A stretch of DNA of 32,564 bases from contig WFUT01000105.1 of NCBI GenBank assembly GCA_015484845.1, positions 1-32,564 on the forward strand. The letters run 5' to 3'. This document shows positions 2,505 through 24,332 of this stretch, one piece after another. Each line of letters opens with the position of its first letter. The stretch's first letter is position 1. Both the position numbers and the translations under genes were made by a program. Source of the DNA: Desulfobulbaceae bacterium. GTDB lineage: Bacteria; Desulfobacterota; Desulfobulbia; Desulfobulbales; Desulfobulbaceae. The notes below the pieces were generated by a model. That model was not told where the DNA came from. It did no database searches and worked only from the letters and a program-made list of their open reading frames with translations.

Positions 2505-4976
<2,472 letters not shown>

Positions 4977-5088: not shown

Positions 5089-5121
5089 CAGGGGCTGTTG
5101 CCCATTTTCATTGTTGGTCGA

Positions 5122-5136
5122 GCCCGCTGCGCGGGC
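5122..5136. repeat. Hairpin GCCCGC-tgc-GCGGGC in the merR-copA intergenic region
   Basis: Perfect 6-bp inverted repeat with 3-nt loop. Confidence 0.6.
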
Positions 5137-5153
5137 ATGAACCTCTCTCCATC

Positions 5154-5210
5154 CGCGCCCTTGATGCCTCGCATCTCCGGCGATATTGCCAATCGCAGAA
5201 TTGCGGTTTC
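5154..5210 (+). repeat. Dispersed repeat copy A (half element): CGCGCCCTTGATGCCTCGCATCTCCGGCGATATTGCCAATCGCAGAATTGCGGTTTC
   Basis: Near-identical to segments at 6571-6631 (reverse orientation) and 29926-29988. Confidence 0.85.
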
Positions 5211-5637
5211 AATGGTTGCTGCGGTTGTGCTGCGCGTGCTCGCCGCTCAGGGCCTCCAGGATCGGACAGTCGTCCACCGAGCCGTGACCGTCGCATTGTG
5301 CGACCAACTGTTCCAGGCCGGCCTGGATCCTGGTGAGATCCCTGATCCGATGCCTGATCTTGTCGATCTTCTTTGTTGCCCGGGCCTTGATATCCGCCTT
5401 GGTGGCGGCGGGATCACTGCTCAGCACCAGCAGTTCCCCTATCTCGGCCAGGGTGAAGCCCAGCGATTTTGCCCGCCTGATGAAACGGAGACGGAGGGCG
5501 TCATCCTCGCTGTAGAGCCGATAGTTGGACTCGCTCCTGGCCGCGGTCTCGATCAGACCGCACCGTTCATAAAAACGGATGGTGTCGGTGGAGACTCCGA
5601 CCCGTTTCGCCAACTTGCCAATGGTGAGTGTTTCCAT
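5209..5637 (-). CDS. MerR-family heavy-metal-responsive transcriptional regulator (CueR/ZntR/CadR-like)
   Basis: METLTIGKLAKRVGVSTDTIRFYERCGLI HTH; C-terminal metal-loop cysteines CDGHGSVDDCPIL. Start set at the METLTIG Met within the longer ORF. Confidence 0.92.
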   Translation of the reverse strand: METLTIGKLAKRVGVSTDTIRFYERCGLIETAARSESNYRLYSEDDALRLRFIRRAKSLGFTLAEIGELLVLSSDPAATKADIKARATKKIDKIRHRIRDLTRIQAGLEQLVAQCDGHGSVDDCPILEALSGEHAQHNRSNH

Positions 5638-5726: not shown

Positions 5727-5960
5727 TCAGCTCAGGAGATCCCTGAACAGGCTGACCAGGGTACCGATGGGCCCGCCGGTATCCACCGCGCCGGTATAGA
5801 GGGCGATGGCGCTCCACAGGCCCAGCAGTATGCCAACAGCCACCAGCAGGAACAGGAGCACCATGGCAATGGTTTCACCGATGGTGCCGCCCTCGTCCTG
5901 CTCGTCTTCTCTCTGCTGCATCAGAACGGTCTCTTCATGAAACTGAAACAAGGTATTCAT
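5727..5960 (-). CDS. Small single-TM protein (77 aa), paralogue of the next gene
   Basis: MNTLFQFHEE...VGILLGLWSAIALYTGAVDTGGPIGTLVSLFRDLLS; SD GGAGGG before ATG at 5960. Confidence 0.75.
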   Translation of the reverse strand: MNTLFQFHEETVLMQQREDEQDEGGTIGETIAMVLLFLLVAVGILLGLWSAIALYTGAVDTGGPIGTLVSLFRDLLS

Positions 5961-5989
5961 GGCTCCCTCCACCGGACGGTTCCCTTTTC

Positions 5990-6202
5990 CTACATCCCTG
6001 TCACGGCACGGACAAAGTCGGTGAGCAGGGCAAAGGGGCCGCCGCTGGCCACCATGCCGGCGAACAGGGCAACAATGCCCCAGAGGCCGATCAGGATACC
6101 GCCGGCCCCCACCGTGGCCAGGCCGGTCAGGATGGCGATGTCCATTACCGAGGCATCGCGGGGTGCTGTCTTCTCACGTACACGGGTCATTGCTGCTTTC
6201 AT
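5990..6202 (-). CDS. Small single-TM protein (70 aa), paralogue of 5727..5960
   Basis: MKAAMTRVREK...GGILIGLWGIVALFAGMVASGGPFALLTDFVRAVTGM; SD GAGGAAGAG before ATG at 6202 (6232 possible). Confidence 0.75.
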   Translation of the reverse strand: MKAAMTRVREKTAPRDASVMDIAILTGLATVGAGGILIGLWGIVALFAGMVASGGPFALLTDFVRAVTGM

Positions 6203-6260
6203 GATCTCTTCCTCGAAGGTTGGATGTTTCATGTCACTTTGTGGTCTTTACCTGTCACAT

Positions 6261-6371: not shown

Positions 6372-6388
6372 TATCCAAAAACAGGACA
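6372..6388. promoter_or_regulatory. Candidate activator-binding dyad TATC-N9-GACA (TATCCAAAAACAGGACA)
   Basis: Same TRTCYA-N7-GACAGC pattern as 12958-12974 and 24316-24332; about 96 bp upstream of the 6261-6276 promoter. Confidence 0.5.
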
Positions 6389-6506
6389 GCGGAAAATATC
6401 TCCCGCCCCGGACCGTCTCATTTCAAGACAGCAGCCCGTACCCGGCGCCGCAGGGCGGTGTCGCGGGGTCGGGGTGGCGGCCAGGGGTCCGGGAAAAACC
6501 CGGAGG

Positions 6507-6576
6507 CAGGTTGCCCTTGTGGCGCAGAGCGCCTGTGAGGTGTTGCACCGCAGAGCGGTGCAACAAGAGCAACCTG
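6507..6576. repeat. Nested inverted-repeat element: outer 14-bp arms CAGGTTGCCCTTGT/ACAAGAGCAACCTG enclosing two hairpins with identical CAGAG loops
   Basis: GGCG-CAGAG-CGCC (6521-6533) and TTGCACCG-CAGAG-CGGTGCAA (6543-6563) inside arms that pair 13/14. Confidence 0.75.
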
Positions 6577-6631
6577 AATTCTGCAACTGGCAATATTGCC
6601 GGAGATGCGAGGCAGCAAGGGCGCAGACGTC
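6571..6631 (-). repeat. Dispersed repeat copy B (half element)
   Basis: Reverse complement ACGTCTGCGCCCTTGCTGCCTCGCATCTCCGGCAATATTGCCAGTTGCAGAATTCAGGTT matches copies A and C. Confidence 0.85.
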
Positions 6632-6685
6632 TGGACCAGGGTTTCAGATCGCGGTCCCCTGCGCTCCCGGCCGCCATTTCCGGAG

Positions 6686-6741: not shown

Positions 6742-9700
6742 TCAGGAAACCTGTTTCTGCTTCCTGCTGAGCCGACGTTCCCGGAACTGGAGATACATGC
6801 CGTAGATAATCGGAATGACGAGCAGGCTGAGGATGGTGGCCGTGACCATGCCCCCCACCATGGGGGCGGCGATCCGCCGCATGACCTGTGAGCCGGTACC
6901 GGTGCCGTACATGATGGGCAGCAGGCCGGCAATGGTGGCGGTGGCGGTCATGGCGATGGGCCGAACACGCTCCGAGGTGCCGGTATGGACCGCCTCCATG
7001 ATCTCTCTGCTGTTCAGGCTGCGCCCGCCGACCTCCCGGTGCTTCTTTTCCAGCTCATGGTCGATGAAGGTGAGCACAAGCACACCGATCTCGGACGAGA
7101 CCCCTGCCAGGGCGATGAAGCCCACCACGATGGCCACCGACAGGTTGAAGCCGGAGAACCAGATCAGCCAGATCCCGCCCACCAGGGCAAAGGGAATGGA
7201 GAGCATGACGATAACCGGCTCTGCCAGGTTGCGGAAATTGAAATAGAGCAGCAGGAAGATCGCCACCAGTGTCAGGGGCACCACCAGGCGCAGCCGCTCT
7301 CTGGCCCGCTGCATGTACTCGAACTGGCCGGACCAGGAGAGGGTGTAGCCGGCCGGCAGCTTGAGCTCGCTGGCGATCTTCTTCTTGGCCCGGGCCACAT
7401 AGCCGCCGATGTCCGAGCTGGAGATATCGACATAGATCCAGGCATTGGGCCGCGCGTTTTCGCTCTTGATCACTGGCGCGCCCCGGGCAAGACGGATATC
7501 GGCCACCTGGTTGAGCGGTATCTGCGCCCCGGCCGGCGTGGGCACCAGGGCCCGGCCGATGCTCTGCGGCGAATCCCGCAGGTCACGGGGATAACGGACA
7601 TTGATGGGATAACGCTCAAGACCCTCGATGGTCTCGGAGACGTTCATGCCGCCGATGGCCGACATGATGACATCCTGGACATCGTCCACCGTCAGCCCGT
7701 AGCGGGCCGCCTCCTTCCGGTTGACCCGGATATCGAGGTAGTAGCCACCCACGGCCCGGTCACCGTAGGCCGAGATCGTGCCGGGCAGGGTCTTCATGAT
7801 GTTTTCGATGTCCAGGGAAAGGCGCTGCAGCGTTTTCAGGTCCGGACCGCTGACCTTGATGCCGATGGGCGTCTTGATGCCCGTGGACAGCATGTCGATC
7901 CGCGTCTTGATGGGCATGGTCCAGGCGTTGGCCAGGCCGGGCATGCGCAGTTCCTTGTCCATCTCCTTCATCAGGTCGCTGGTGGTCTTGGAGGGATCAG
8001 GCCACTGGTCCCGGGGTTTCAGCCGGATGGTGGTCTCGATCATGGACAGGGGCGCCGGGTCGGTGGCGGTCTCGGCCCGTCCCACCTTGCCGAACACGGA
8101 CTGCACCTCGGGAAAGGTCTTGATGATCTTGTCGGTCTGCTGCAGGATCTCCTTGGCCTTGGTGATGGAGATGCCGGGGAAGGTGGACGGCATGTAGAGG
8201 ATATCGCCCTCGTCCAGCGGCGGCATGAACTCGGAACCAAGCCGCGACAGGGGGTACCAGGTCGCGGCCACCAGGGCGACGGCGCCGAGCAGGACCAGCC
8301 AGCGCAGCTTGATAAACAGGCGCAGGATGGGGCTGTGGACAAAGATCAGCATCCGGTTGATGGGATTTTTCGCCTCGGCAATGATCTTGCCGCGGATGAA
8401 GTACCCCATCAGGACCGGCACCAGGGTCACGGCCAGGAAGGCGGAAGCGGCCATGGCATAGGTCTTGGTGAAGGCCAGGGGTGAAAACAGCCGCCCCTCC
8501 TGGGCCTGGAGCGTGAAGATGGGCAGGAAGGAGACCGTGATGATGAGCAGGGAGAAGAAGAGCGCCGGTCCCACCTCCCGGGCCGCATCGCCCATGATCC
8601 GCCAGCGGGTGGCGGAGTCGATGACGGTGCCATTTTTTGCCGCCGCCTCCAGGTGCTTGTGCCCGTTCTCGATCATGACGATGGCACCGTCCACCATGGC
8701 GCCGATGGCGATGGCGATGCCGCCCAGCGACATGATGTTGGCGTTGATGCCCTGCAGTTTCATGATGATGAAGGCCATGAGGATGCCCATGGGCAGGCTG
8801 GCGATGGCCACCAGGGCGGAACGGAAATGGAGCAGGAAGACCACGCAGACAATCGAGACAACGATGAACTCCTCGATCAGCTTGCTCTTGATGTTCTCGA
8901 TGGCCCGCTCGATGAGATTGCCACGGTCATAGACCGGCACGATCTCCACCCCCTTGGGCAGTCCCTTTTTCAGCTCTGCCAGCTTGGCGCGCACCGCCTC
9001 GATGGTGGCCAGGGCGTTGTCACCATAGCGCATGATGATCACCCCACCAGCCACCTCGCCCTGACCGTTGAGCTCGGCGACCCCGCGCCGCAGCTCCGGT
9101 CCGAGATGGATGTTGGCCACGTCGCCGAGTCGTATCGGCGTGCCCATCCGGTCGGTTTTGAGGGGAATCTGCTTCAGGTCGTCGATGGAGCGGATATAGC
9201 CCAGGCCGCGCACCATGTACTCGGTCTCGGCCATCTCGATGAGCCGCCCGCCCACGTCACTGTTGGAGCGCTGGATCGCCCGGCGGACCTGCTGGATGGG
9301 GATGTTATAGGTGGCCAGCTTGTCCGGGTCCACCTCGACCTGGTACTGCTTGACATAACCGCCGATGGAGGCCACCTCGGCCACGCCGGGCACGGTCTGC
9401 AGGGGATAACGCAAATACCAGTCCTGGAGCGAACGGAGCTGCGCCAGATCCAGGTTGCCGGTACGGTCGACCAGGGCGTACTCGTAGACCCAGCCGACAC
9501 CGGTGGCATCGGGTCCCAGGGCCGGGGTCACGCCGGGCGGCAGCCGGGAGGAGACATAGTTGAGGGACTCCAGCACCCTGGAGCGGGCCCAGTACATGTC
9601 GGTGCCGTCCTCGAAGATCACGTAGACAAAGGAGAGACCGAAAAAGGAGTACCCCCGCACCACCTTAGATCGCGGCACGGCCAGCATGGCGGTGGTGAGC

Positions 9701-9903
9701 GGATAGGTCACCTGGTCCTCCACCACCTGCGGCGCCTGGCCGGGGTACTCGGTGAAGATGATGACCTGGACGTCGGACAGGTCGGGAATGGCGTCCAGGG
9801 GCGTGTTCTTCAGGGTCCAGATACCGGCGACGGCGATGAGGGCCATGCCGATGAGCACCAGGAACCTGTCCCGGATCGAGAGGTCGATTATCTTCTGTAT
9901 CAT
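6742..9903 (-). CDS. cusA: CusA/CzcA-family heavy-metal RND efflux permease
   Basis: 1053 aa; MIQKIIDLSIRDRFLVLIGMALIAVAGIWTLKNTPLDAIPDLSDVQVIIFTEYPGQAPQVVEDQVTYPLTTAM; AETATDPAPLSMIETTIRLKP and RIDMLSTGIKTPIGIKVSG as in CusA. Confidence 0.95.
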   Translation of the reverse strand: MIQKIIDLSIRDRFLVLIGMALIAVAGIWTLKNTPLDAIPDLSDVQVIIFTEYPGQAPQVVEDQVTYPLTTAMLAVPRSKVVRGYSFFGLSFVYVIFEDGTDMYWARSRVLESLNYVSSRLPPGVTPALGPDATGVGWVYEYALVDRTGNLDLAQLRSLQDWYLRYPLQTVPGVAEVASIGGYVKQYQVEVDPDKLATYNIPIQQVRRAIQRSNSDVGGRLIEMAETEYMVRGLGYIRSIDDLKQIPLKTDRMGTPIRLGDVANIHLGPELRRGVAELNGQGEVAGGVIIMRYGDNALATIEAVRAKLAELKKGLPKGVEIVPVYDRGNLIERAIENIKSKLIEEFIVVSIVCVVFLLHFRSALVAIASLPMGILMAFIIMKLQGINANIMSLGGIAIAIGAMVDGAIVMIENGHKHLEAAAKNGTVIDSATRWRIMGDAAREVGPALFFSLLIITVSFLPIFTLQAQEGRLFSPLAFTKTYAMAASAFLAVTLVPVLMGYFIRGKIIAEAKNPINRMLIFVHSPILRLFIKLRWLVLLGAVALVAATWYPLSRLGSEFMPPLDEGDILYMPSTFPGISITKAKEILQQTDKIIKTFPEVQSVFGKVGRAETATDPAPLSMIETTIRLKPRDQWPDPSKTTSDLMKEMDKELRMPGLANAWTMPIKTRIDMLSTGIKTPIGIKVSGPDLKTLQRLSLDIENIMKTLPGTISAYGDRAVGGYYLDIRVNRKEAARYGLTVDDVQDVIMSAIGGMNVSETIEGLERYPINVRYPRDLRDSPQSIGRALVPTPAGAQIPLNQVADIRLARGAPVIKSENARPNAWIYVDISSSDIGGYVARAKKKIASELKLPAGYTLSWSGQFEYMQRARERLRLVVPLTLVAIFLLLYFNFRNLAEPVIVMLSIPFALVGGIWLIWFSGFNLSVAIVVGFIALAGVSSEIGVLVLTFIDHELEKKHREVGGRSLNSREIMEAVHTGTSERVRPIAMTATATIAGLLPIMYGTGTGSQVMRRIAAPMVGGMVTATILSLLVIPIIYGMYLQFRERRLSRKQKQVS

Positions 9904-9931: not shown

Positions 9932-11344
9932 CTACCTGGTGGTCGGTGTCCTGTCTTTTCCGGTTCCGGTCTTCATGTCCTTCATCGCCTTGCCGTCCTT
10001 CGCATTGTTCGCATTCTTCGCGTCCTTCGCGTCCTTGTTCATGTCCATCTTCATGGCCGGCTTGCCGGCGGCGGCATTGGCCTCCAGCATCTTGGCCGTG
10101 GCCTCCTTGAGCTTGGACTCGGAATCGATCAGGAACTGGGCCGAGGTCACCACGGTCTCGTGTTCCTTGAGGCCGCTGACGATCTCGGTATAGCCGTCGG
10201 CCACGAGGCCGGTGACCACCTTGCGCGGCTCGAAGAGTCCCTCGCCGCGGCGGATGAAGACCAGGGCCTCGGTGCCGGAGCGGACAATGGCCTCGGAGGG
10301 GACGGCCAGCACGTTGTCCCGCCTGGATGCGTGGATGGTGACGCCGGCAAACATGCCGGGCCTGAGCCCGAAGTCCCTGTTCCTGAAGACCAGCCGCACC
10401 TTGACGGTCCGCGTCTCGCCCTCCTCGTAGGGATAGATATAGTCGACCGTGCCGCTGAAGGAGGTTCCGGGCTGGGTGGTCACGGTCATGGTCGCCCTGT
10501 CGCCGGTCCGGATCCAGGGCAGGTCATCCTCGTAGACATCGGCATAGACCCAGACCGTGGACAGGTCCGCGATCCGGTACAGCTCGTCCTTGGGGGTCAG
10601 GTAGTGGCCGGCCCGGATGCCCATGCGGATAACTGTCCCCTGGTAGGGAGAGAGGATGGTGATATCCCGCTTGATCTTGCCGGTCTTCTCCAGGGTGTTG
10701 ATCACCGCATCGGGAATGTCGAAAAACTCGAGCCGGCTCCTGGTCGCCTCCACCAGGCGCTGCGCCCCCTCCCGGATCTCGGCCAGGGAACTCCTGGCAA
10801 GGATCCTGGCATTGGCCAGGGCCAGGAGATATTCCTCCTGGGTGGAGACCAGCTCCGGGGAATAGATGGAAAAGAGCGGCTGTCCCTTTTTCACCTCCTG
10901 GCCGGTCTTGGAGACAAACAGCTTCTCCGCCCAGCCGCTGAACTTGGAGTGGACCATGCTCAGGCTCGCCTCGTTAAAGGCGACCCGGGCCGGGGTCCGC
11001 ACCTCGTGACTCATGGACCGCCTCATGGCCATGGCCGTGCGCACGCCGATCTTCTGGACCATGACCGGGTCGATCTTCACGGTACCCGGGGGGCCCGTGG
11101 TATCATCATCGGCATAGACCGGGATGTAGTCCATGCCCATCTCGTCCTTGGCCGGTACCGGCGAGGTGACGGCCGGGTTCATGGGACTGCGGTAGAAGAG
11201 AGGCTTCTTTTTTTCCTGTGGTGGCTTTTCCCCGGCCGTGGCCGTCCGGATCACCGGGAGACCGCCGACCAGGAAGGTGGGCATGGCCGCGGCCGCGGCC
11301 AGCAACCCGGCAGACAGCAGCAGGGCATGGATTGTTCGTTTCAT
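9932..11344 (-). CDS. cusB: Efflux RND periplasmic adaptor (CusB-like membrane fusion protein)
   Basis: Signal/anchor N-terminus, YRSPMNPAVTSPVPAKDEMGMDYIPVY, HlyD-type fold motifs; 4-bp overlap with the upstream TolC-family gene. Confidence 0.92.
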   Translation of the reverse strand: MKRTIHALLLSAGLLAAAAAMPTFLVGGLPVIRTATAGEKPPQEKKKPLFYRSPMNPAVTSPVPAKDEMGMDYIPVYADDDTTGPPGTVKIDPVMVQKIGVRTAMAMRRSMSHEVRTPARVAFNEASLSMVHSKFSGWAEKLFVSKTGQEVKKGQPLFSIYSPELVSTQEEYLLALANARILARSSLAEIREGAQRLVEATRSRLEFFDIPDAVINTLEKTGKIKRDITILSPYQGTVIRMGIRAGHYLTPKDELYRIADLSTVWVYADVYEDDLPWIRTGDRATMTVTTQPGTSFSGTVDYIYPYEEGETRTVKVRLVFRNRDFGLRPGMFAGVTIHASRRDNVLAVPSEAIVRSGTEALVFIRRGEGLFEPRKVVTGLVADGYTEIVSGLKEHETVVTSAQFLIDSESKLKEATAKMLEANAAAGKPAMKMDMNKDAKDAKNANNAKDGKAMKDMKTGTGKDRTPTTR

Positions 11345-12690
11345 CGCTTTTCTCCCTGGGTAACCTGGACGCCGGTTGCCGCCTCGAGGCCGGCCAGGGC
11401 CTTGAAACCGCCGGTCAGCAGGCGCCAGTAGGTTATCTTGTAATTGTAGAGGGCCAACTGGGCCCGGACCACGTTGAGGAAATCCACCTTGTTGACCTGG
11501 TAGCCCTTGAGCATGGCCGCAGCGGTCTGCTCGGCCTGCGGAATGATGGCGTTCTGGTAGAAGCGGCTCTGCCTGCGGGATGATTCGTATTCACTGAGTT
11601 CGCGCAGCACTTCCGCCGTGACCTGGTCCCTGGTGTCCCGCAGCCGGTGTTCCACGGCCAGGGTCTCGCTGGTCCGCTGGGCAACGGCCCGGTCCTGCTT
11701 GGTGGCGCTCCAGATGGGCAGGTTGAGACTGAGCCTGAACGACGCAAAATCCGCCCGGTCCCTGCCATCCGGCGCATCCTGCCGGTAGCCGTAGGCAGCG
11801 CCGACGGTAAAATCCGGGTAATAGTCCTTGCGGGCCAGCTCGGTCTTCGTGACAGCGGCATCCTTTTCCCTGGCCAGGGCCAGGAGGGCGGGCCGTTCCC
11901 GGAGGGCCTCCTCGAGCAGGGTCTGTTCCGGCGCCACATCCGGCAAAGTGGTGGCAACCTTTGCCGGCAGGGTGATGCAGAACGATGATGGTGCGTCGAT
12001 GAGGGCATTGAGGTCGGCCTTTTTCTTTTTCAGGCTGTTCTCCAGGGCGATCTCGCGGTCCAGGAGCTTGGACAGCTCGAGCTGGGCCAGGAGCACGTCC
12101 TGCTGCAGTCCCTTGCCCACGGCGTACTTGGTGCGGGCAGCGCCGACCGTGGCGCGCAGGAGGTCCTGGTTGTCGCGGACAACACCCAGGGTCTGCTCCA
12201 GGTAGTAGATATCCCACCAGGTATTCTTCACCTTCCTGATGAGCTGCAGCCTGGCCTCGTCCACCTGGCTTGCGGCCGCGTCGGCCAGCGAGGTGGCCGC
12301 CTCTTCGCGCAGCTTCAGCTTGCCGGGAAACGGGAACTTCTGGCTCAGCCCCACCTGCATCTGGGTCATGTTCTCCTGGCCGGCATCAAAGGTGTCCACG
12401 GGCAGGTTCAGGGCGCCCAGCGACAGGACCGGGTCGGGCAGGGAACCGGCCTGGTCGGGCACGGCCGCCAGGGCCTCGTAGCGGGCCTGGATGGCGGAGA
12501 GGCCGGGATTCTTGGCCATGGCGATCTCCACGGCCCGGTCCAGGGACAGTTCCTCGCACTGCCCATTGTCCGCGGCAGGTTGCGTCCGGGCCCAGGCCCC
12601 GGCCACCATGGACAGCAGCAGGGCTGCCGCCAGCAGGACGACCGCGACCGGTATACTTCTGTTACTCGTTCTTTCAGGTTTCCGTATCAC
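11341..12690 (-). CDS. cusC: TolC-family outer membrane efflux protein (CusC-like); GTG start
   Basis: OEP-type repeats; start codon GTG at 12690 with AAGGAGGAG SD. Confidence 0.9.
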   Translation of the reverse strand: MIRKPERTSNRSIPVAVVLLAAALLLSMVAGAWARTQPAADNGQCEELSLDRAVEIAMAKNPGLSAIQARYEALAAVPDQAGSLPDPVLSLGALNLPVDTFDAGQENMTQMQVGLSQKFPFPGKLKLREEAATSLADAAASQVDEARLQLIRKVKNTWWDIYYLEQTLGVVRDNQDLLRATVGAARTKYAVGKGLQQDVLLAQLELSKLLDREIALENSLKKKKADLNALIDAPSSFCITLPAKVATTLPDVAPEQTLLEEALRERPALLALAREKDAAVTKTELARKDYYPDFTVGAAYGYRQDAPDGRDRADFASFRLSLNLPIWSATKQDRAVAQRTSETLAVEHRLRDTRDQVTAEVLRELSEYESSRRQSRFYQNAIIPQAEQTAAAMLKGYQVNKVDFLNVVRAQLALYNYKITYWRLLTGGFKALAGLEAATGVQVTQGEKR

Positions 12691-12740: not shown

Positions 12741-12756
12741 AGCATGAAGCATGCCT
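12741..12756 (-). promoter_or_regulatory. Candidate sigma-54 -24/-12 promoter AGGCATGCTTCATGCT upstream of cusCBA
   Basis: GGCA and TGCT with exact GG-N10-GC spacing; about 50 bp from the GTG start. Confidence 0.55.
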
Positions 12757-12927
12757 GGTGGTGGGAAACGTGACCGCGAGGCATGCCCCCTGCTCCGGCC
12801 GTCCGGACGAAAACCGCTCCCCGGGCAACCATTCCGGCCAGACGACACAGCCTGAAGCGATGATGCAGACTCCACCCTTGGGGATGGTCCGAAGATACCC
12901 GGCCGGAGATCCGACCGTCCAGGAACA

Positions 12928-12939
12928 GGACACCTGTCC
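12928..12939. promoter_or_regulatory. Short dyad GGACA-CC-TGTCC in the divergent cusC/SHOCT intergenic region
   Basis: Inverted repeat read directly; next to the TGTC-N9-GACA dyad. Confidence 0.35.
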
Positions 12940-12957
12940 CTTTCAAGACCGCCATAG

Positions 12958-12974
12958 TGTCTACTTTATGGACA
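12958..12974. promoter_or_regulatory. Candidate activator-binding dyad TGTC-N9-GACA (TGTCTACTTTATGGACA)
   Basis: Same 17-bp architecture as at 24316-24332; between two divergent sigma-54-like promoters. Confidence 0.5.
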
Positions 12975-13219: not shown

Positions 13220-13235
13220 TGGCATCAAACGTGCA
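13220..13235 (+). promoter_or_regulatory. Candidate sigma-54 -24/-12 promoter TGGCATCAAACGTGCA
   Basis: TGGCA and TGCA with exact spacing, 50 bp upstream of the SHOCT ORF. Confidence 0.6.
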
Positions 13236-13284: not shown

Positions 13285-13536
13285 ATGATGCGCTATGGAT
13301 TTCACGGAGGAAGCTGGTTATGCGGCCCCGGGGCCTTTTTTCCCGGACCGCTGGGCTGGGTCATCACCCTGCTCTTCTGGGCCCTGATCATCTACCTGGT
13401 CTTCTGGATATTCAAGACCGTTTTTGCCGGAAAATCCGGCCATGACCCCCGCCCCCTGGACACACTCAAGCAACGGTATGCCCGGGGCGAAATCACTGAG
13501 GACGAATTCAAACGGATGAAGTCCGAACTCTCGTAG
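13285..13536 (+). CDS. Small membrane protein with C-terminal SHOCT domain
   Basis: TM segment then LDTLKQRYARGEITEDEFKRMKSELS, the SHOCT signature; AAGGAG SD. Confidence 0.88.
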   Translation: MMRYGFHGGSWLCGPGAFFPGPLGWVITLLFWALIIYLVFWIFKTVFAGKSGHDPRPLDTLKQRYARGEITEDEFKRMKSELS

Positions 13537-13706: not shown

Positions 13707-14072
13707 ATGTACTGCGACTGGGGTAGTGGCTGGCATGACTCCCCTTACTATTATGGCGGGTTGGCTGCGCTGCTCCTCCTGGTCTGCATCCTTGGCATCG
13801 CAGCCTTTGTATATTGTTATACCAGGAGAAAACGTTGCGCTCAACCACAATGTCCCGCCTGCGGAGGAGCAGTGGAAGAAGTCTTTCTCCGCTGCCCCTT
13901 CTGCGGCACGGCCCTGAAACGCCACTGCCCGGCGTGCCACAGGGTCATTGGCGCGGACTTCCGGTTCTGCCCCTACTGCAGTGCCGCCACCGGCCCGGAC
14001 GCGGCAGACCCTGCCCGGGACGCAACGGTCACCGACCCTGCCCCTGCAACGGGAACGGGCAACCAGGCCTGA
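13707..14072 (+). CDS. Single-TM protein with double zinc-ribbon
   Basis: N-terminal TM followed by CPACGG..CPFCG and CPACHR..CPYCS pairs. Confidence 0.8.
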   Translation: MYCDWGSGWHDSPYYYGGLAALLLLVCILGIAAFVYCYTRRKRCAQPQCPACGGAVEEVFLRCPFCGTALKRHCPACHRVIGADFRFCPYCSAATGPDAADPARDATVTDPAPATGTGNQA

Positions 14073-14289: not shown

Positions 14290-14766
14290 ATGAAAAGGAC
14301 AACAGCACTGATCGCACCACTGCTCACCATCGCCCTGCTCACCGCCCCGGCCATGGCCCAGACCGGCAGGGCCACCCATCCGACCCCGCCACCCCGGCAG
14401 CAGATGCACGCCAATATGATGATGGGAGGCGGTATGGGCATGGGCATGACAGGCATGGGCATGATGGATGGTAACGGGACCGACTGGCGGTCGGAACAGT
14501 GGAATCGTGGCTGCATGGGCATGATGGGCGGCTTCATGATGAGCATCATGACACCGGACCAGCAGCAGCAGTTCCTTGACGCCACCAGGGACCTGCGCCG
14601 GCAGATGCTGGAGCTCCGCTTCACCTACATGGAGACCATGCGCGATCCCAAGGCCACCCCTGCCGACCTGGCCAGGATCGAAAGCAAGATGCTCGATATC
14701 CGCAAGCAGATGATGGCCAAGCTGGAAAAGCTGCTGAACAGGAAGATACCACCGGCAACCAGGTGA
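14290..14766 (+). CDS. Secreted Met-rich periplasmic protein, ZraP/Spy/CnrR-like metal-binding chaperone
   Basis: Signal peptide, MMMGGGMGMGMTGMGMM cluster, helical domain TPDQQQQFLDATRDLRRQMLELRFTYMETMR. Confidence 0.75.
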   Translation: MKRTTALIAPLLTIALLTAPAMAQTGRATHPTPPPRQQMHANMMMGGGMGMGMTGMGMMDGNGTDWRSEQWNRGCMGMMGGFMMSIMTPDQQQQFLDATRDLRRQMLELRFTYMETMRDPKATPADLARIESKMLDIRKQMMAKLEKLLNRKIPPATR

Positions 14767-16234: not shown

Positions 16235-16786
16235 ATGGATCTCAGCGACGAAGAGCTTGTCAGCCGGGTACTTGCGGGCAGCAGCGAGAGTTTTTCCCTC
16301 CTGGTGCAGCGCTACCAGCGGCCGGTCTACAACCTGATGTACAGGTATACCCGTTCCGGGGAGGAGGCGGCGGATCTCACCCAGGAGGTCTTTCTCCGCG
16401 CCTATGAAAAACTGGACCAGTACCGGGCCGGGCACAGCTTCTTCTCCTGGCTCTATGCCCTGGCCAGCAACCGGGCCGGCGACTGGTACCGGAAGAACGG
16501 CAGGCGCATCCGGAATGAACAACAGATGCGCCTCGAGGGCGATCCTCCCGCACATGTCTCCGGCCAGGAGGAAAAACTGGAGAAACAACAGCAACTGGAG
16601 CTGCTGGAGATCCTGCTGGACCGGTTACCGGTCCGGACCAGGGAGATCCTGCTGCTCCGGTACCGGCAGGAACGACCGGTAAAGGAGATTGCCGCCATCT
16701 TCGACTGCTCGGAGAGTGCGGTCAAGATGCGGATCTCCAGGGGATTGCAACAGCTGCAGGCCATGGTGGCCGAAAACGAATCATGA
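16235..16786 (+). CDS. ECF sigma-70 family RNA polymerase sigma factor
   Basis: Region 2 (LVQRYQRPVYNLMYRYTRSGEEAADLTQEVFLRAYEKLDQYR) and region 4 (LDRLPVRTREILLLRYRQERPVKEIAAIFDCSESAVKMRISRGLQQL). Confidence 0.92.
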   Translation: MDLSDEELVSRVLAGSSESFSLLVQRYQRPVYNLMYRYTRSGEEAADLTQEVFLRAYEKLDQYRAGHSFFSWLYALASNRAGDWYRKNGRRIRNEQQMRLEGDPPAHVSGQEEKLEKQQQLELLEILLDRLPVRTREILLLRYRQERPVKEIAAIFDCSESAVKMRISRGLQQLQAMVAENES

Positions 16787-16837
16787 CATGGGCCCTGCAA
16801 CCCCCCGGGCCGGACGCCGCCAAGGAGCAGGGAGACG

Positions 16838-17950
16838 ATGAAACACGACGAACTGATCGATCTTCTGAAAAAAATCCCAGAACGTGAACCGCCGCCCGAA
16901 CTGCACGGCCGGATCATGCGGGCCGTGCGGGCAAAAGAGCGCACCCGCCTGCAGAGACTGGCAGACCTGTTTTCCGCGCCACTGGTCGTCCGCATCCACC
17001 CCCTGCGCCTGGCGGCCATGGGGTTTGCCTGCACCCTCTTTTTCGCCCTCGGCATCCTGGCAGGCAAAAGCCCGCTCTTCAGCGGCGGGCAGCAGCCGAC
17101 CCTGCCGCAGACGGTCGCGGATGACCGGGCCAACTATTTCATCGGCCGTGCCCTGCTGGCCGCCGGTGATCCGGCCCGGGCCGCCAGGTACCTGTCCAGG
17201 GCGGCGCTGCTGGCCCCGGGCGAGACCAGCTACGAGTTCTGGCAGGGCGTGGCCTACGGCCTTGCCGGCCAGCGGGACAAGGAGCGCAGCAGCTACAACC
17301 AGGTCATCAGCATGCGGCCGGACTACCTGCCTGCCCTGGTCAACCTGGGCCACAACCTGCTGCAGAGCGGCGAGCTCGACAGGGCCCTGGCCCTGTATGA
17401 CAGGGTCCTGCGGCTTGCGCCGGCGAACCGGGAGGCCCTGTACAACCGCGGCCTGGTCTTTCACCTCCAGGGCAGGCGCAGGGCCGAGGCCCGGGCCTGG
17501 AAAAAATTCCTGGCCACCTACCGGACCGGCCGCTGGGCCTTCAGGGCCGTGGCGCATCTCAACAATCTCGGTGACTTCTCCTATCGCGCCGGCCGCATCG
17601 GCCCGCGGAAGATCATCTTCCACCAGGCAGCGCTCCTGGGCAGTGACGCACAGGCCCGCGACCAGGAGATCCGGTTGCTGGCCGGCGAGATCGCCAGGAC
17701 CCCTTCCGGGCCCCTGAACCTGGTTCTCTTCCGGGCCGGCGACCCGGCAGGGGCAAGGAAAACGGCCATCCGTCTGCAGGCACTCTTTGCCAGGCAACTC
17801 AAGGGAAAGAGGGTCAGCGTCTCCTGGTTCGGCCAGCCCGAGAAGGTACACTCTTCCTCGGGAACACAGTATGAACTGAAGAGCGGGTTGCTCCTTTTCA
17901 GCGCACCCGCAACCGGTACCAACATCAGCAGCATGGAGAAAAGGATATGA
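16838..17950 (+). CDS. Putative anti-sigma factor: short cytoplasmic N-terminus, one TM, periplasmic TPR domain and OmpA/LytR_C-like C-terminus
   Basis: Immediately follows the ECF sigma gene; MKHDELIDLLKKIPEREPPPELHGRIMRAVR then a TM (LRLAAMGFACTLFFALGILAG) then TPRs. Confidence 0.7.
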   Translation: MKHDELIDLLKKIPEREPPPELHGRIMRAVRAKERTRLQRLADLFSAPLVVRIHPLRLAAMGFACTLFFALGILAGKSPLFSGGQQPTLPQTVADDRANYFIGRALLAAGDPARAARYLSRAALLAPGETSYEFWQGVAYGLAGQRDKERSSYNQVISMRPDYLPALVNLGHNLLQSGELDRALALYDRVLRLAPANREALYNRGLVFHLQGRRRAEARAWKKFLATYRTGRWAFRAVAHLNNLGDFSYRAGRIGPRKIIFHQAALLGSDAQARDQEIRLLAGEIARTPSGPLNLVLFRAGDPAGARKTAIRLQALFARQLKGKRVSVSWFGQPEKVHSSSGTQYELKSGLLLFSAPATGTNISSMEKRI

Positions 17951-18900
17951 AAACAAAACAGTATGCACGACAACTGGCCCTGGCCATCCTGGCCGGAACC
18001 ATGGCCGTCACACCGGCCCTGGCCGCCTCCCCGGATGACACCGTGACCGAGCAGCCCGCCTTTACCAGCCCGGTCCAGGCGGAGCGTGCCGCCAACCTGG
18101 CCGAACGGGCGGCCATGCAGACCAGCACTGCCCTGCAGAACTCCCTGCACCAGGTCGATGCGGCGGAACAGCGCATGCAGCAGGCCCTGGCCACGGGGAA
18201 CCAGGCCAGGATCACGGCGGCCCGCAGCGCCCTGGAAAGGGCGCAGCAGCAGTACACGCAGCAGTTGTCAGAGATGACCGGCGTCATGACCGACGACATC
18301 GCGAAGATGCGGGAAAACGGCATGGGCTGGGGCCAGATCGCCGCCGAGCTGGGAGTTCATCCCGGAGAGCTTGGCATGGGGCATGATCGGCGCGGCCGGG
18401 ACCAGGGGATGACGTCACAGAACCGTGGCAGGGCCAGGGGCATGCACCGGGGCATTGATCCCGACGAGATGGCCGAGGCAACGGCCCGCGACATGGAAAC
18501 AGGGTGGTCAGGCGGGCATGGCGCTGGCATGGGATCCGGCATGAGCAACGGCATGCAGGGTGGCGGCCATGGCGGGATGATGGGTGGCGCCGTTGGTATG
18601 TCGGGCCGGGGTGACGGACACGGTGGCGGTCCCTCGGGCAGTGAAGGCGGCGGCCACGGCGGCAGTGGTCCCGGCGGCTCCTCCGGCGGCAGCGGCCATG
18701 GCGGCGCCGGTGGTGGCATGGGTGGCGGCATGGGCGGTGGTAGCTCCAGCGGCGGCCATGGCGGTGGCCATGGCGGCGGAGGCATGGGAGACGGCGGCTC
18801 GGGAGGCCACGGTGGCGGTGGAGCCGGCGGCGGCATGGGTGACGGCGGTTCCGGCGGCCACGGCGGTGGCGGCGGCGGTGGCGGTGGCGGCAGACGGTAG
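17947..18900 (+). CDS. Secreted protein with helical N-terminal domain and long Gly/His/Met-rich low-complexity tail
   Basis: Signal peptide (TPALAA), MRENGMGWGQIAAELGVHPGELGMGH motif, GGHGGGMGDGGSGGHGGG tail; 4-bp overlap (ATGA) with the anti-sigma candidate. Confidence 0.8.
   Translation: MKTKQYARQLALAILAGTMAVTPALAASPDDTVTEQPAFTSPVQAERAANLAERAAMQTSTALQNSLHQVDAAEQRMQQALATGNQARITAARSALERAQQQYTQQLSEMTGVMTDDIAKMRENGMGWGQIAAELGVHPGELGMGHDRRGRDQGMTSQNRGRARGMHRGIDPDEMAEATARDMETGWSGGHGAGMGSGMSNGMQGGGHGGMMGGAVGMSGRGDGHGGGPSGSEGGGHGGSGPGGSSGGSGHGGAGGGMGGGMGGGSSSGGHGGGHGGGGMGDGGSGGHGGGGAGGGMGDGGSGGHGGGGGGGGGGRR
18781..18894 (+). repeat. 51-bp in-frame tandem repeat (GMGDGGSGGHGGGGAGG) within the Gly/His-rich tail
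   Basis: Two adjacent copies starting at 18781 and 18832. Confidence 0.75.
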
Positions 18901-18975: not shown

Positions 18976-20610
18976 TTACGGCGTATCCGGTTTTGCAATG
19001 AAGACCGGTGCCCTGCGATAGGACACCCTGTCGCCGTGGCACATCTTGCAGGTGTGATTCTTTTCGATCGTTCCCGGCCCGCCCTTGAAGAACTGGGTCT
19101 CTCCGCCCGTGGAATCCATGACGTTCTGCAGGTCCGGATTGACCCTGCCGCCGGCTCCCTTGAACTGGAAGTTGAACATGGGCACCTTGTCCACCGTGCC
19201 GGGCGTGGAGGTCAGTTCGCCGTGCCTGAGCATGAGGGGATTGGGTGAGCCATGGACATTATGACAGGCCGTGCAGCTCGGCGATGAATCAGGAGTGCCG
19301 TCCCAGTCGGAATCCCAGACCGGGTCATTGCCGTCCGGTCCCCTGCCCCGCAAGTGACGAAGATGTTCGTTGACGACATTGCCATTGGCATCAACATGGT
19401 CGTCATTACGAAAGTTTGTCTGCAGGGGATACTGGAAGAACTCGCCGTCTCCGTAGGCGTCACCGAGTAACTTGTACCGGTCATGGCACTTGAAGCAGAG
19501 AGCGAAATCGTTGTCAGTCCTCGGATGTTCGCCGTTGTCCTTCCCCACGCGGGGGACCTCCATGGCAGGTACGGTCTCCGAGCCGACCTGCACGTCTTTC
19601 AGCCGATAGCCCACAGTATAGTTGTTCAGGTCGGCCCTGTAGGTCCTGGCGATACCGTCGATGTGCAGGTGCTGCGTATCGTGGCAGTTGTCACAGGTAA
19701 TCTTGTGGCCATTGACAAGGTAGCCATAGCTCAGGTTGCTCCTGACCTGGAACTCCCGCAGCGAATCCACCACCAGCGAGGAGGGACGCAGGAAGACCAG
19801 CTTGACATAGCGAATCGGCATGAACTTGTCGAGCCGGTACTCATTCCACCCTGTTTTGGGACCGACTTCCCAGGATGGCCTGGCGAACATGGTCGAGCGA
19901 CCATAGAGGATCCGGGTCCAGGAGGCCTGGTCCGTGCTCCCGTACACCTCAACCAGTACCTGGGAGTCGAGAACCGTGTACAACCGGATATGGCTGATCG
20001 TCCTGGTCGTGCCGAGATCAAAGACCAGGTCAGATGCGGTGGTGAACGGATTGCCGGTGTCGATGTCGCCATCGATCAGGTTTTCCGCGCCCTGGACATC
20101 GCTCTCCACGACGCCGGCCGGGCTCTCCCAGTCACCGACCAGGGTCTTGCCGGCAACATTTGGCGCGGCAACGCCCCGGACCGTGGAATGGCCGTCATCG
20201 TGGCACCCCAGGCACCACAGCTCCTTGCCGGGCTTGAGGGAGCCGTCGGCGTTGTAGATGCTCGAACCCGAGGAACCGGACGACCAGCCCATCCTGGCAA
20301 AGGGAAACCTGCCGCCACTGCTGCCGGACGAGGTGTCGCCATGGCCGGGCCTGTTGGCCCAGGCGCCGACCACGGGATCATAGACGCCGTCGATGGCGCC
20401 ATCGGGACTGTGACAGGGCTCGCAGGCCTTGGGGCTTGGTCGCATGCCCATGCCACCGGTACCGTGGCAATTGAAACAGGTGAGCTTGAAATCCCCCTTT
20501 TCCCCGCCCAGGTGCACGTTGTGAAAGGTGGTGAACGAGGACGCGCCTGCCCCGGCAGCCATGCCGAGCAGGAACGTGGCCCCTGCCGCCGCAATGAGTA
20601 CTTTTTTCAT
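18976..20610 (-). CDS. Secreted multiheme (7 CxxCH) cytochrome c with an inserted discoidin/F5-8C-like domain
   Basis: CFNCH, CEPCH, CLGCH, CDNCH, CFKCH, CTACH, CKMCH; insert NLIDGDIDTGNPFTTASDLVFDLGTTRTISHIRLYTVLDSQVLVEVYGSTDQASWTRI...YVKLVFLRPSSLVVDSLREFQV. Confidence 0.88.
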   Translation of the reverse strand: MKKVLIAAAGATFLLGMAAGAGASSFTTFHNVHLGGEKGDFKLTCFNCHGTGGMGMRPSPKACEPCHSPDGAIDGVYDPVVGAWANRPGHGDTSSGSSGGRFPFARMGWSSGSSGSSIYNADGSLKPGKELWCLGCHDDGHSTVRGVAAPNVAGKTLVGDWESPAGVVESDVQGAENLIDGDIDTGNPFTTASDLVFDLGTTRTISHIRLYTVLDSQVLVEVYGSTDQASWTRILYGRSTMFARPSWEVGPKTGWNEYRLDKFMPIRYVKLVFLRPSSLVVDSLREFQVRSNLSYGYLVNGHKITCDNCHDTQHLHIDGIARTYRADLNNYTVGYRLKDVQVGSETVPAMEVPRVGKDNGEHPRTDNDFALCFKCHDRYKLLGDAYGDGEFFQYPLQTNFRNDDHVDANGNVVNEHLRHLRGRGPDGNDPVWDSDWDGTPDSSPSCTACHNVHGSPNPLMLRHGELTSTPGTVDKVPMFNFQFKGAGGRVNPDLQNVMDSTGGETQFFKGGPGTIEKNHTCKMCHGDRVSYRRAPVFIAKPDTP

Positions 20611-20642
20611 ATGACCTCCTGAGTCCATTGAAAAATATGGAT

Positions 20643-20729: not shown

Positions 20730-22082
<1,353 letters not shown>

Positions 22083-22093
22083 TCCCTGTCCTT

Positions 22094-23854
22094 TTATGTA
22101 GTGCCGTTCGTCATCTTCCTGCGGCCGTCAACCGGCAGGACCACGGTGATGGTGGTGCCCTCGCCCGGCCGCGACTCCACCTCGAAAAAGCCACCGTGCT
22201 GTTCCACTATCTGGTGGCTGACGGCCAGGCCAAGACCGGTTCCCGACTTGCGGGTCGAGAAGAAGGGGTCAAACATCTGCTCCCGCTCTTCCCTGCTCAT
22301 GCCCCTGCCGCTGTCGGCCACGCTGATGCGGACCTCTTCCCTGTCCCGGCGGCAGGAGAGAGTGATCTCCGAGCCGGGGGAGGAGGCGCTGACCGCGTTT
22401 TTCAGGAGGTTCAGGAGCACCTGCAGGAGCAGGTCCGGGTCCGCGCCGACCGGCTCGTCGCACGAGCTTTGCAGCCGCAGCGTGACGGTGTTGCTGGTAA
22501 AGTCATGCTCCAGGAGCCTGGCGGTCTTCTCGAACAGCTCGCCCAGCCGCACCGGCTGCAGTTCCGGCTCCCGGGGACGGGAGAACTGGAGCAGGGCCGA
22601 GATCGAGGCATTGAGCCGGTCCACCTCGCCGATCATCAGCTCGGCATACTCCCGCCCTGCCTCGTCACCGGGCCTGGAGCCGAAGTACTGGGCAAAGCCG
22701 CGCAGCGTGCCCAGGGGATTGCGGATCTCGTGGGCGATTCCCGCCGCCATCCGGCCCAGGGATGCCAGCCGCCGCGACCGTTCGAGTTGCTCTTCCATGG
22801 CCTTGATCTCGCGCAGGTCACGCAGGATCAGGACAGCACCCAGGACCGCATCGTCAGTATCCCGGAGCAGGGAGCTGCTGATCTCCACCGGCACCCGCCT
22901 GCCGTCTTCATGGCAGAACTCGTAGCCCACCGACAGGACCTCCCGGCCCCCGGCAAGGGAGGCAATGGGCCAGTCGGCAAAGAGCTCCTCCAGCCGCCTG
23001 CCCAGCAGCTCCTCCATGGGCCGGCCCATGATGGCCACGGCCCTGGCATTGCAGGAGACGATGCGGCCTTCGGAGTCCAGGGTCACCAGGCCGTCGGGCA
23101 TGGACTCGATGACGTTCCTGGTGTAGAGCTGCATGTTGTGCAGCGTGGTCCGGGTCACCCGCATGCCCTGGTAAAGAAAGAGGAAGTAAAACCCGGCACT
23201 GCCCAGGAGAAAGAGAAGTCCGGCCATGAAGAAGGAGTGACGGATATCCTGCTGCCTGGCCTTGATGAACTCGCCGCTGTGCAGGCCGAGGAAGATGATC
23301 TTGCGGCTCTGCGCCCGGTCGCCGTCCCACCAGGCCATCCCTGACGAGCACTGGCCGTGGCCCATCATGCCGTTCGATGATCCCCGGCCCGGCCCGGCAA
23401 GATGAAACTCCTTGGCTACCTGGAAGATGGGATCCTCGCCCTGCTTTTCGAACATGGTGGTGACCGGTCCGGACGAGGCAAGGATGGTTTTGCAGACCGC
23501 CGGATTCACCAGGGGCAGTGGCCGGCCGGAGCTGGCAATGACCTCCCCCTTTTCGGAGACAATGAGGATGTAGGCGATGCGCTCCGACCTGGCCGTCTCC
23601 CTGACCAGGGTGACGATGGGCGGAGTCTGGCCCATCATCTCGTGCATCATGGTGGTGCGGGCGCCGGCCTCGAAGCTCCGGATGAGCAGCAGTCCCTCGT
23701 CGAGAAGAAAGCTCTCCATGATGTTCTGCTCGCGGGAGAGATTGCGTACCGTGCTCACCACCAGGATGCCGGCAAGCATGAAGGTGGCCAGGAGGATGGC
23801 GAGGCCCAGGCGTGAGAACCTGAAGGGAATGCGTCCGGAAGAAGGTATCTGCAT
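22094..23854 (-). CDS. Two-component sensor histidine kinase with periplasmic sensor and PAS domain (ZraS/HydH-like)
   Basis: Two TM segments flanking a periplasmic domain, PAS, H-box GIAHEIRNPLGTLRGFAQYF, NLLKNAVSA, ADSGRGMS, GTGLGLAVSHQIVEQHGG. Confidence 0.93.
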   Translation of the reverse strand: MQIPSSGRIPFRFSRLGLAILLATFMLAGILVVSTVRNLSREQNIMESFLLDEGLLLIRSFEAGARTTMMHEMMGQTPPIVTLVRETARSERIAYILIVSEKGEVIASSGRPLPLVNPAVCKTILASSGPVTTMFEKQGEDPIFQVAKEFHLAGPGRGSSNGMMGHGQCSSGMAWWDGDRAQSRKIIFLGLHSGEFIKARQQDIRHSFFMAGLLFLLGSAGFYFLFLYQGMRVTRTTLHNMQLYTRNVIESMPDGLVTLDSEGRIVSCNARAVAIMGRPMEELLGRRLEELFADWPIASLAGGREVLSVGYEFCHEDGRRVPVEISSSLLRDTDDAVLGAVLILRDLREIKAMEEQLERSRRLASLGRMAAGIAHEIRNPLGTLRGFAQYFGSRPGDEAGREYAELMIGEVDRLNASISALLQFSRPREPELQPVRLGELFEKTARLLEHDFTSNTVTLRLQSSCDEPVGADPDLLLQVLLNLLKNAVSASSPGSEITLSCRRDREEVRISVADSGRGMSREEREQMFDPFFSTRKSGTGLGLAVSHQIVEQHGGFFEVESRPGEGTTITVVLPVDGRRKMTNGTT

Positions 23855-23893: not shown

Positions 23894-24109
23894 TTACGGG
23901 AGCACGTGGTGCATCAGCTCCAGTGGGTCTTCAATGCCGGCCAGGCCCAGGTAGGCGGCAACCGACCAGAGCGCGATGGTCACGGTGACCGCGCCGATGG
24001 CCAGGAGCATGGCCAGGGCAAGACGTTCCATCAGGTCGGGCCTGGAACGCTCCCTTTTCCCGGTGGCGGACAGGGCCCTGTTTCGTTTGCTTGTCCGGGT
24101 GGCGATCAT
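23894..24109 (-). CDS. Small single-TM protein (71 aa), first gene of the kinase/regulator operon
   Basis: MIATRTSKRNRALSATGKRERSRPDLMERLALAMLLAIGAVTVTIALWSVAAYLGLAGIEDPLELMHHVLP; TGGAGGGA SD before ATG at 24109. Confidence 0.75.
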   Translation of the reverse strand: MIATRTSKRNRALSATGKRERSRPDLMERLALAMLLAIGAVTVTIALWSVAAYLGLAGIEDPLELMHHVLP

Positions 24110-24188: not shown

Positions 24189-24202
24189 GGACGGATCCGT
24201 CC
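24189..24202. repeat. Perfect 14-bp palindrome GGACGGATCCGTCC in the predicted 5' leader of the kinase/regulator operon
   Basis: Read directly. Confidence 0.6.
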
Positions 24203-24225
24203 GAACCGCCCTGTACCTCCTTTCA

Positions 24226-24241
24226 AGCAATCATCGGGCCA
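24226..24241 (-). promoter_or_regulatory. Sigma-54 -24/-12 promoter TGGCCCGATGATTGCT
   Basis: Differs from TGGCACG-N4-TTGCW at one position, with exact spacing. Confidence 0.78.
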
Positions 24242-24315
24242 CAAAAATCAACATATTGGATTTACATGATTATTATCACCAGGAATGCGCCGGGTGACAA
24301 CAGGAGGGAACGTGC

Positions 24316-24332
24316 TGTCCAGGAATGCGACA
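24316..24332. promoter_or_regulatory. Candidate activator-binding dyad TGTC-N9-GACA (TGTCCAGGAATGCGACA)
   Basis: Shared 17-bp dyad, about 75 bp upstream of the 24226-24241 promoter. Confidence 0.55.

Follow-up and report, generated by a model that had tools for sequence, protein, structure and literature searches.

We consider it quite probable that an autoregulated sigma-54 operon is controlled from the segment 24226-24332, through a copper/silver-sensing ZraSR-type system that would drive metal efflux. The segment belongs to a stretch of 32,564 nucleotides from a Desulfobulbaceae bacterium, which was analyzed as a whole and is called the window here. The initial annotation had proposed a sigma-54 promoter and a 17-bp dyad at this place, used by the adjacent regulator for its own expression. 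The same upstream activating sequence (UAS) was found to mark copper-export genes nearby and in related species. Thus the earlier guess looks right and extends to a copper/silver regulon. Beyond what had been proposed, this regulon likely takes in cusCBA and copA of the same window, with a role in copper/silver handling. The sites, their spacing, conservation, co-occurrence and gene content rest on sequence comparison, and from these we infer regulator binding, sigma-54 dependence, the role of IHF and the identity of the metal. The features are collected in Table 1.

Table 1. Regulatory elements, operon genes and proposed target genes in the window
Feature	Position	Strand	Remarks
Putative sigma-54 -24/-12 promoter TGGCCCGATGATTGCT	24226..24241	-	Predicted start near 24215; counterparts in L039 (7595) and L040 (7459)
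IHF consensus match AATCAACATATTG (WATCAA-N4-TTR)	24246..24258	+	Perfect; between UAS and promoter
Sigma-70-like site TTGTCA-N17-GATAAT	24272..24300	-	10/12 match; possible basal promoter
Degenerate half UAS copy CGGCGCATTCCTGGTGA	24276..24292	-	Shares GCATTCCTGG with the UAS; 40 bp downstream of it
Enhancer (UAS) dyad TGTC-N9-GACA	24316..24332	.	Proposed binding site of the 20730..22082 regulator; family motif TGTCY-N7-RGACA
71-aa single-TM small membrane protein	23894..24109	-	Leads the operon; two relatives among the small proteins of the window
ZraS-type sensor kinase	22094..23854	-	Periplasmic MMHEMMG and MMGHGQC motifs, PAS, HisKA, HATPase
ZraR/NtrC-type response regulator	20730..22082	-	REC, sigma-54 AAA+, Fis HTH; 51% to E. 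coli ZraR
UAS pair, 42 bp apart	12916..12974	.	Between divergent cusC and SHOCT-protein operons; conserved in L119
Sigma-54-like AGGCATGCTTCATGCT before cusC	12741..12756	-	176 bp from proximal UAS; kept as AGGCATGTTTCATGCT in L119
Sigma-54-like TGGCATCAAACGTGCA before SHOCT-protein operon	13220..13235	+	Kept as TGGCATCAACTGTGCA in L119
CusC/TolC-type outer membrane protein	11341..12690	-	
CusB-type adaptor	9932..11344	-	
CusA/CzcA heavy-metal RND pump	6742..9903	-	
SHOCT membrane protein	13285..13536	+	Homologues directly after UAS pair and sigma-54 site in L044, L050, L144
Double zinc-ribbon membrane protein	13707..14072	+	Homologues after UAS pair and sigma-54 site in L053, L055, L057
Met-rich secreted protein	14290..14766	+	LTXXQ/ZraP-like, but match weak (Pfam cut-off not reached)
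UAS pair, 42 bp apart	6372..6430	.	Upstream of small-membrane-protein/MerR/copA run
Sigma-54-like TGGCACGGTCCATGAA	6261..6276	-	Proximal UAS at 112 bp; perfect -24, but GA for GC in a degenerate -12
80-aa small membrane protein	5990..6232	-	Related to the 71-aa protein
81-aa small membrane protein	5727..5972	-	Related to the 71-aa protein
CopA-type Cu+ P-type ATPase	2505..4976	-	YHS and heavy-metal-binding domains

The predicted promoter lies to the base where it had been placed, on the minus strand from 24241 to 24226. TGGCCCGATGATTGCT deviates from TGGCACG-N4-TTGCW at one position, a C instead of A in the -24 box, and its GG and GC are 10 bp apart as sigma-54 -24/-12 sites require. No other site in the 32.5-kb window combines an intact GG/GC with two or fewer mismatches. 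The distance to the 71-aa ORF (start 24109), estimated before as about 120 bp, was measured as 117 bp. The dyad TGTCGCATTCCTGGACA (minus strand, 24332-24316), expected about 75 bp further upstream, is separated from TGGCCCGATGATTGCT by 74 bp and is a perfect TGTC-N9-GACA. As a putative operator the dyad stands. The form TRTCYA-N7-GACAGC claimed for it does not, and was refined to the 17-bp TGTCY-N7-RGACA. The genome also encodes rpoN (TIGR02395, 456.5 bits).

Scans of the single genome were evaluated as well. The -24/-12 pattern with at most one mismatch gave 32 matches, versus 26 with the reversed control. This is not discriminating, and the scan was dropped as evidence. The exact dyad occurred at 105 places, many of them coding (e.g. 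C13:2384 inside an ORF). A loose dyad combined with a sigma-54 site resulted in 60 matches (9 in the control), mostly in apparent coding DNA, and was likewise set aside as evidence on its own. Since the -24/-12 frequency is near that of the control and loose dyad-promoter combinations are common, the promoter case was settled by comparison between genomes. Single-genome statistics are no proof of a promoter; it is the conservation of the sequence that confirms the observation as real.

In two genomes of the same genus, the same operon with the same small gene is preceded by a UAS and a -24/-12 site at a spacing of 102 bp (TGTCCTGTTTCTGGACA and TGGCCCGCGTCTTGCA in L039, TGTCTTCTTTCTGGGCA and TGGGCCGATAATTGCA in L040), compared with 91 bp in the window. 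Both elements are kept there though the flanks have changed. The gene era is located upstream of the operon in the window. L040 lacks era at this position, thus conservation of dyad and promoter is not a by-product of era. At more distant Desulfobulbales loci the dyad is usually paired, with copies 41-45 bp apart; a second full dyad at this distance is absent before the 71-aa/kinase/regulator operon, which has a single dyad. A sigma-54 site (at most two mismatches) followed 17 of 65 directed dyad pairs, versus 0.34 expected. Measured from where the proximal dyad begins, all 17 sites fell at 102-105 or 112-115 bp (Rayleigh p ~1e-5). Six further loci had spacings of 102, 102, 113, 114, 115 and 115 bp and one more had 177 bp, two of these further loci being near-identical to ones already counted. 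Because only two main spacings occur, distances of 91, 102 and 113 bp correspond to whole helical turns. By this comparison the window spacing of 91 bp is one turn shorter, which places the UAS in predicted helical register with the promoter.

The same comparison bears on the sigma-70-like site at 24300-24272, from which the operon might mainly be transcribed, the -24/-12 match then being incidental. With a 10/12 match and an optimal spacer (0.2 such sites expected in 800 bp) this site is not negligible. However, the matching regions of L039 and L040 lack such a site while keeping the sigma-54 site and the dyad, and a sigma-70 main promoter would leave the family-wide spacing register unexplained. 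We therefore regard it as very unlikely to be the main promoter. Both promoters may work, and the sigma-70-like site may be a source of basal expression beside induced transcription from the sigma-54 site. A 14-bp perfect palindrome (GGACGGATCCGTCC) was observed at 24189-24202, where the 5' leader of the operon is predicted; it was not seen in the leaders of L039 or L040. Rfam families were not found in the window.

The sigma-54 promoter with an enhancer dyad is further supported by the DNA between the two elements. A perfect IHF consensus was present in 4 of 27 dyad-promoter gaps, that of the window included, whereas 0.17 were expected from shuffles. These perfect sites lie at an offset of 71-74 from the dyad. 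Enhancer, bend site and promoter together form the classic NtrC/NifA layout. The curated cut-off for IHF-alpha was passed by no protein of the genome; only HU/IHF relatives pass. The proposed reading is backed by conservation in the genus, fixed helical spacing, the intervening IHF site, rpoN in the genome, and the co-occurrence and linkage of dyad and kinase. Points against it are the single dyad and the -24 mismatch of this promoter, the nearby sigma-70-like site, the lack of an IHF-alpha match and, as described below, the genomes with dyad pairs but no kinase match and the weak sites at cus and copA.

Within the operon there are gaps of 39 bp before the kinase and 11 bp before the regulator. 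The kinase aligned with E. coli ZraS over residues 27-240 including the periplasmic region (21%, E 8e-8). Orthologues of its sensor region were found in Desulfobulbaceae. Two motifs are widely conserved, namely RSFEAGARTTMMHEMMG and a further MMG motif. The best match of the regulator among solved structures was ZraR (1ojl). Both proteins score below the respective equivalog cut-offs, the regulator with 513 versus 760 for the NCBIfam ZraR model and the kinase below that for ZraS.

A strict dyad pair was detected in 22 of 263 genomes of the class, and 18 of these 22 have the kinase against a background of 77/263 (P = 1.4e-7). Within the family alone, pair and kinase co-occurred in 8/8 (P = 1.4e-6); both P values ignore shared ancestry, which inflates them. 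The reversed control pattern gave 3 matches in total. Four genomes with a dyad pair had no kinase match at E <= 1e-20. In many genomes the pair lies near the kinase on the same contig, in G240 0.5 kb directly upstream. G065 and G054 contain tandem repeats that resemble the pair; these were excluded from the counts. The one in G065 (C201:33435-33566) is built of TGTCTCGCATTGAGACACGAGCT units resembling the dyad motif.

These data also bear on whether the dyad of a genuine sigma-54 promoter is bound by another NtrC-type activator, the neighboring regulator having other targets. The genome holds more than 20 NtrC-type activators, and GlrR of enterobacteria uses similar TGTC-N10-GACA sites (PMC4987338), so half-sites of this kind do not single out one regulator. 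Against this stand the co-occurrence and linkage of the dyad with the 20730-22082 regulator and its kinase. In addition, the recognition helix LGIARQTLLNKIKEY is nearly invariant among orthologues of the regulator and unlike those of the other readable NtrC-type activators of the same genome. Binding by a different activator thus has little probability, and the comparative evidence favors autoregulation by the adjacent NtrC/ZraR-type regulator, as we infer in agreement with the initial annotation.

Besides the single dyad before its own operon, the regulator would have two UAS pairs in the window, at the cus and copA genes. The sigma-54-like sites there are weak, with three mismatches at cus and GA for GC at the -12 position at copA. 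On other contigs of the same genome, dyad pairs precede a DUF4118-HisKA protein and a Metal_resist-family protein; the latter has a spacing of 112 bp and is matched by counterparts in both genomes of the same genus. In relatives, dyad pairs were found before copA, multicopper oxidase, SHOCT, zinc-ribbon and Met-rich proteins; copper detoxification genes with sigma-54 sites include a multicopper oxidase (L145) and copA (L152). At ~5090-5300 and 6440-6650 of the window, spurious ORFs have peptide stretches in common, which suggests a dispersed intergenic DNA repeat.

In the proposed mechanism, the ZraS-type kinase would sense a metal in the periplasm, most likely Cu(I)/Ag(I), via its conserved Met/His residues and phosphorylate the ZraR-type regulator. 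The regulator would bind the dyad at 24316-24332, and a bend in the AT-rich DNA at 24246-24258 would be introduced by IHF or a protein of the HU family. RNA polymerase-sigma54 waiting at 24241-24226 could then be opened by the regulator ATPase, and transcription would start near 24215. Via paired dyads, the same regulator would activate cusCBA, the divergent SHOCT/Met-rich-protein operon and the small-protein/copA run, and elsewhere in the genome the genes for the Metal_resist and DUF4118-HisKA proteins.

The downstream gene content (cus/cop genes, multicopper oxidase, Met-rich proteins) points to Cu(I)/Ag(I) as the signal. The same circuit could instead respond to zinc or general envelope stress as in ZraSR, and the alignment of the sensor domain with ZraS and the ZraP-like proteins among the targets are in line with this. 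We consider such a signal unlikely, since the targets are CusCBA, a CopA-type ATPase and multicopper oxidase, and since the sensor retains the Met-rich MMHEMMG. Motifs of this type are typical of Cu(I)/Ag(I) sites.

Two kinds of membrane protein recur behind the dyads. Small single-TM proteins of 71-81 aa with a shared LWS...GP motif and no Pfam match are repeatedly the first gene (window 5727-6232 and 23894-24109; L110, L111). A membrane protein of ~220 aa with DUF4118 and HisKA follows dyad pairs in five genomes (L159, which is C96 of the own genome, L108, L112, L120 and L122). The scan of a full-length copy revealed no HATPase domain, thus this protein is kinase-like without a catalytic domain. 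By analogy to ZraP, which is thought to damp ZraS, we tentatively suggest that the small proteins (71, 80 and 81 aa; 73-75 aa in G042 and G011) and the ATPase-less protein with its DHp (HisKA) domain might tune the kinase as a membrane feedback.

Among known systems, E. coli CusSR has CusCBA efflux as its output, the same as proposed here. CusR is an OmpR-type, sigma-70 regulator, whereas the regulator at 20730-22082 carries a sigma-54 AAA+ domain. Our data suggest that ZraS-type sensors can drive Cus/Cop-type efflux, which in E. coli is the job of an OmpR-type regulator.

ZraPSR of E. coli and Salmonella is alike in its ZraS-type sensor with a periplasmic Met/His/Cys region, its ZraR-type regulator (51% identity), sigma-54 promoters, autoregulation (proposed here) and a periplasmic metal-binding target protein. 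The system described here differs: its kinase has a PAS domain, small membrane proteins belong to it, and its targets are proposed to be cusCBA and copA. A divergent zraP beside the kinase was not found; era lies upstream, Met-rich proteins are encoded elsewhere in the cluster, and a ZraP-like protein with a UAS and a sigma-54 site is located on another contig. The E. coli zraP-zraS region has sigma-54 sites on both strands and a GAGTAAAAATGACTCGC inverted repeat instead of the dyad. TGTC-N9-GACA is absent from this intergenic region, and by this comparison the operator of the window is not of the E. coli ZraR type. A 2016 review listed the binding site of ZraR as not known.

That a copper regulator can be of the sigma-54 type has an experimental precedent in CorSR of Myxococcus xanthus. 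According to the excerpted text of PMC3707914, it has a sigma-54-type response regulator, a copper-induced operon with CopA and multicopper oxidase, and a place in an operon under its own regulation. It differs in that CorS has HAMP and one TM, with no PAS reported in that text, and in that curA is without cusCBA; an operator is not given in these excerpts. Since ZraPSR and CorSR work in the same way, the kind of system is already known. The nearest published operator that we met is TGTC-N10-GACA of GlrR/QseF, likewise an NtrC-type response regulator acting with sigma-54 (PMC4987338). However, its spacer is one base longer, and GlrR/QseF targets the glmY sRNA rather than metal resistance. The excerpts of two papers on D. 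vulgaris regulators (PMC4641369, PMC3333781) contained no copper or TGTC matches, and a search of the open-access literature revealed no such operator or copper/silver sigma-54 regulon for Desulfobulbales. As far as this literature goes, neither the operator with its paired, phased dyads nor the Cus/Cop regulon has been described in this order. A single promoter guess is thereby turned into a testable regulon. It has a proposed operator, TGTCY-N7-RGACA, which usually occurs in pairs helically phased with -24/-12, and a list of genes under proposed copper/silver control by sigma-54.

Further genes lie around the cluster. A plus-strand run adjoining cus (16235-18900) encodes an ECF sigma factor, a TPR/anti-sigma-like protein and a Gly/His-rich secreted protein. 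In L043, coding DNA with a Gly-rich stretch of this sort was observed before the kinase. Downstream of the regulator, a multiheme c-type cytochrome with an F5/8-type C domain is encoded at 18976-20628, and a hairpin (AACGGCCTG...CAGGCCGTT) lies between these two genes.
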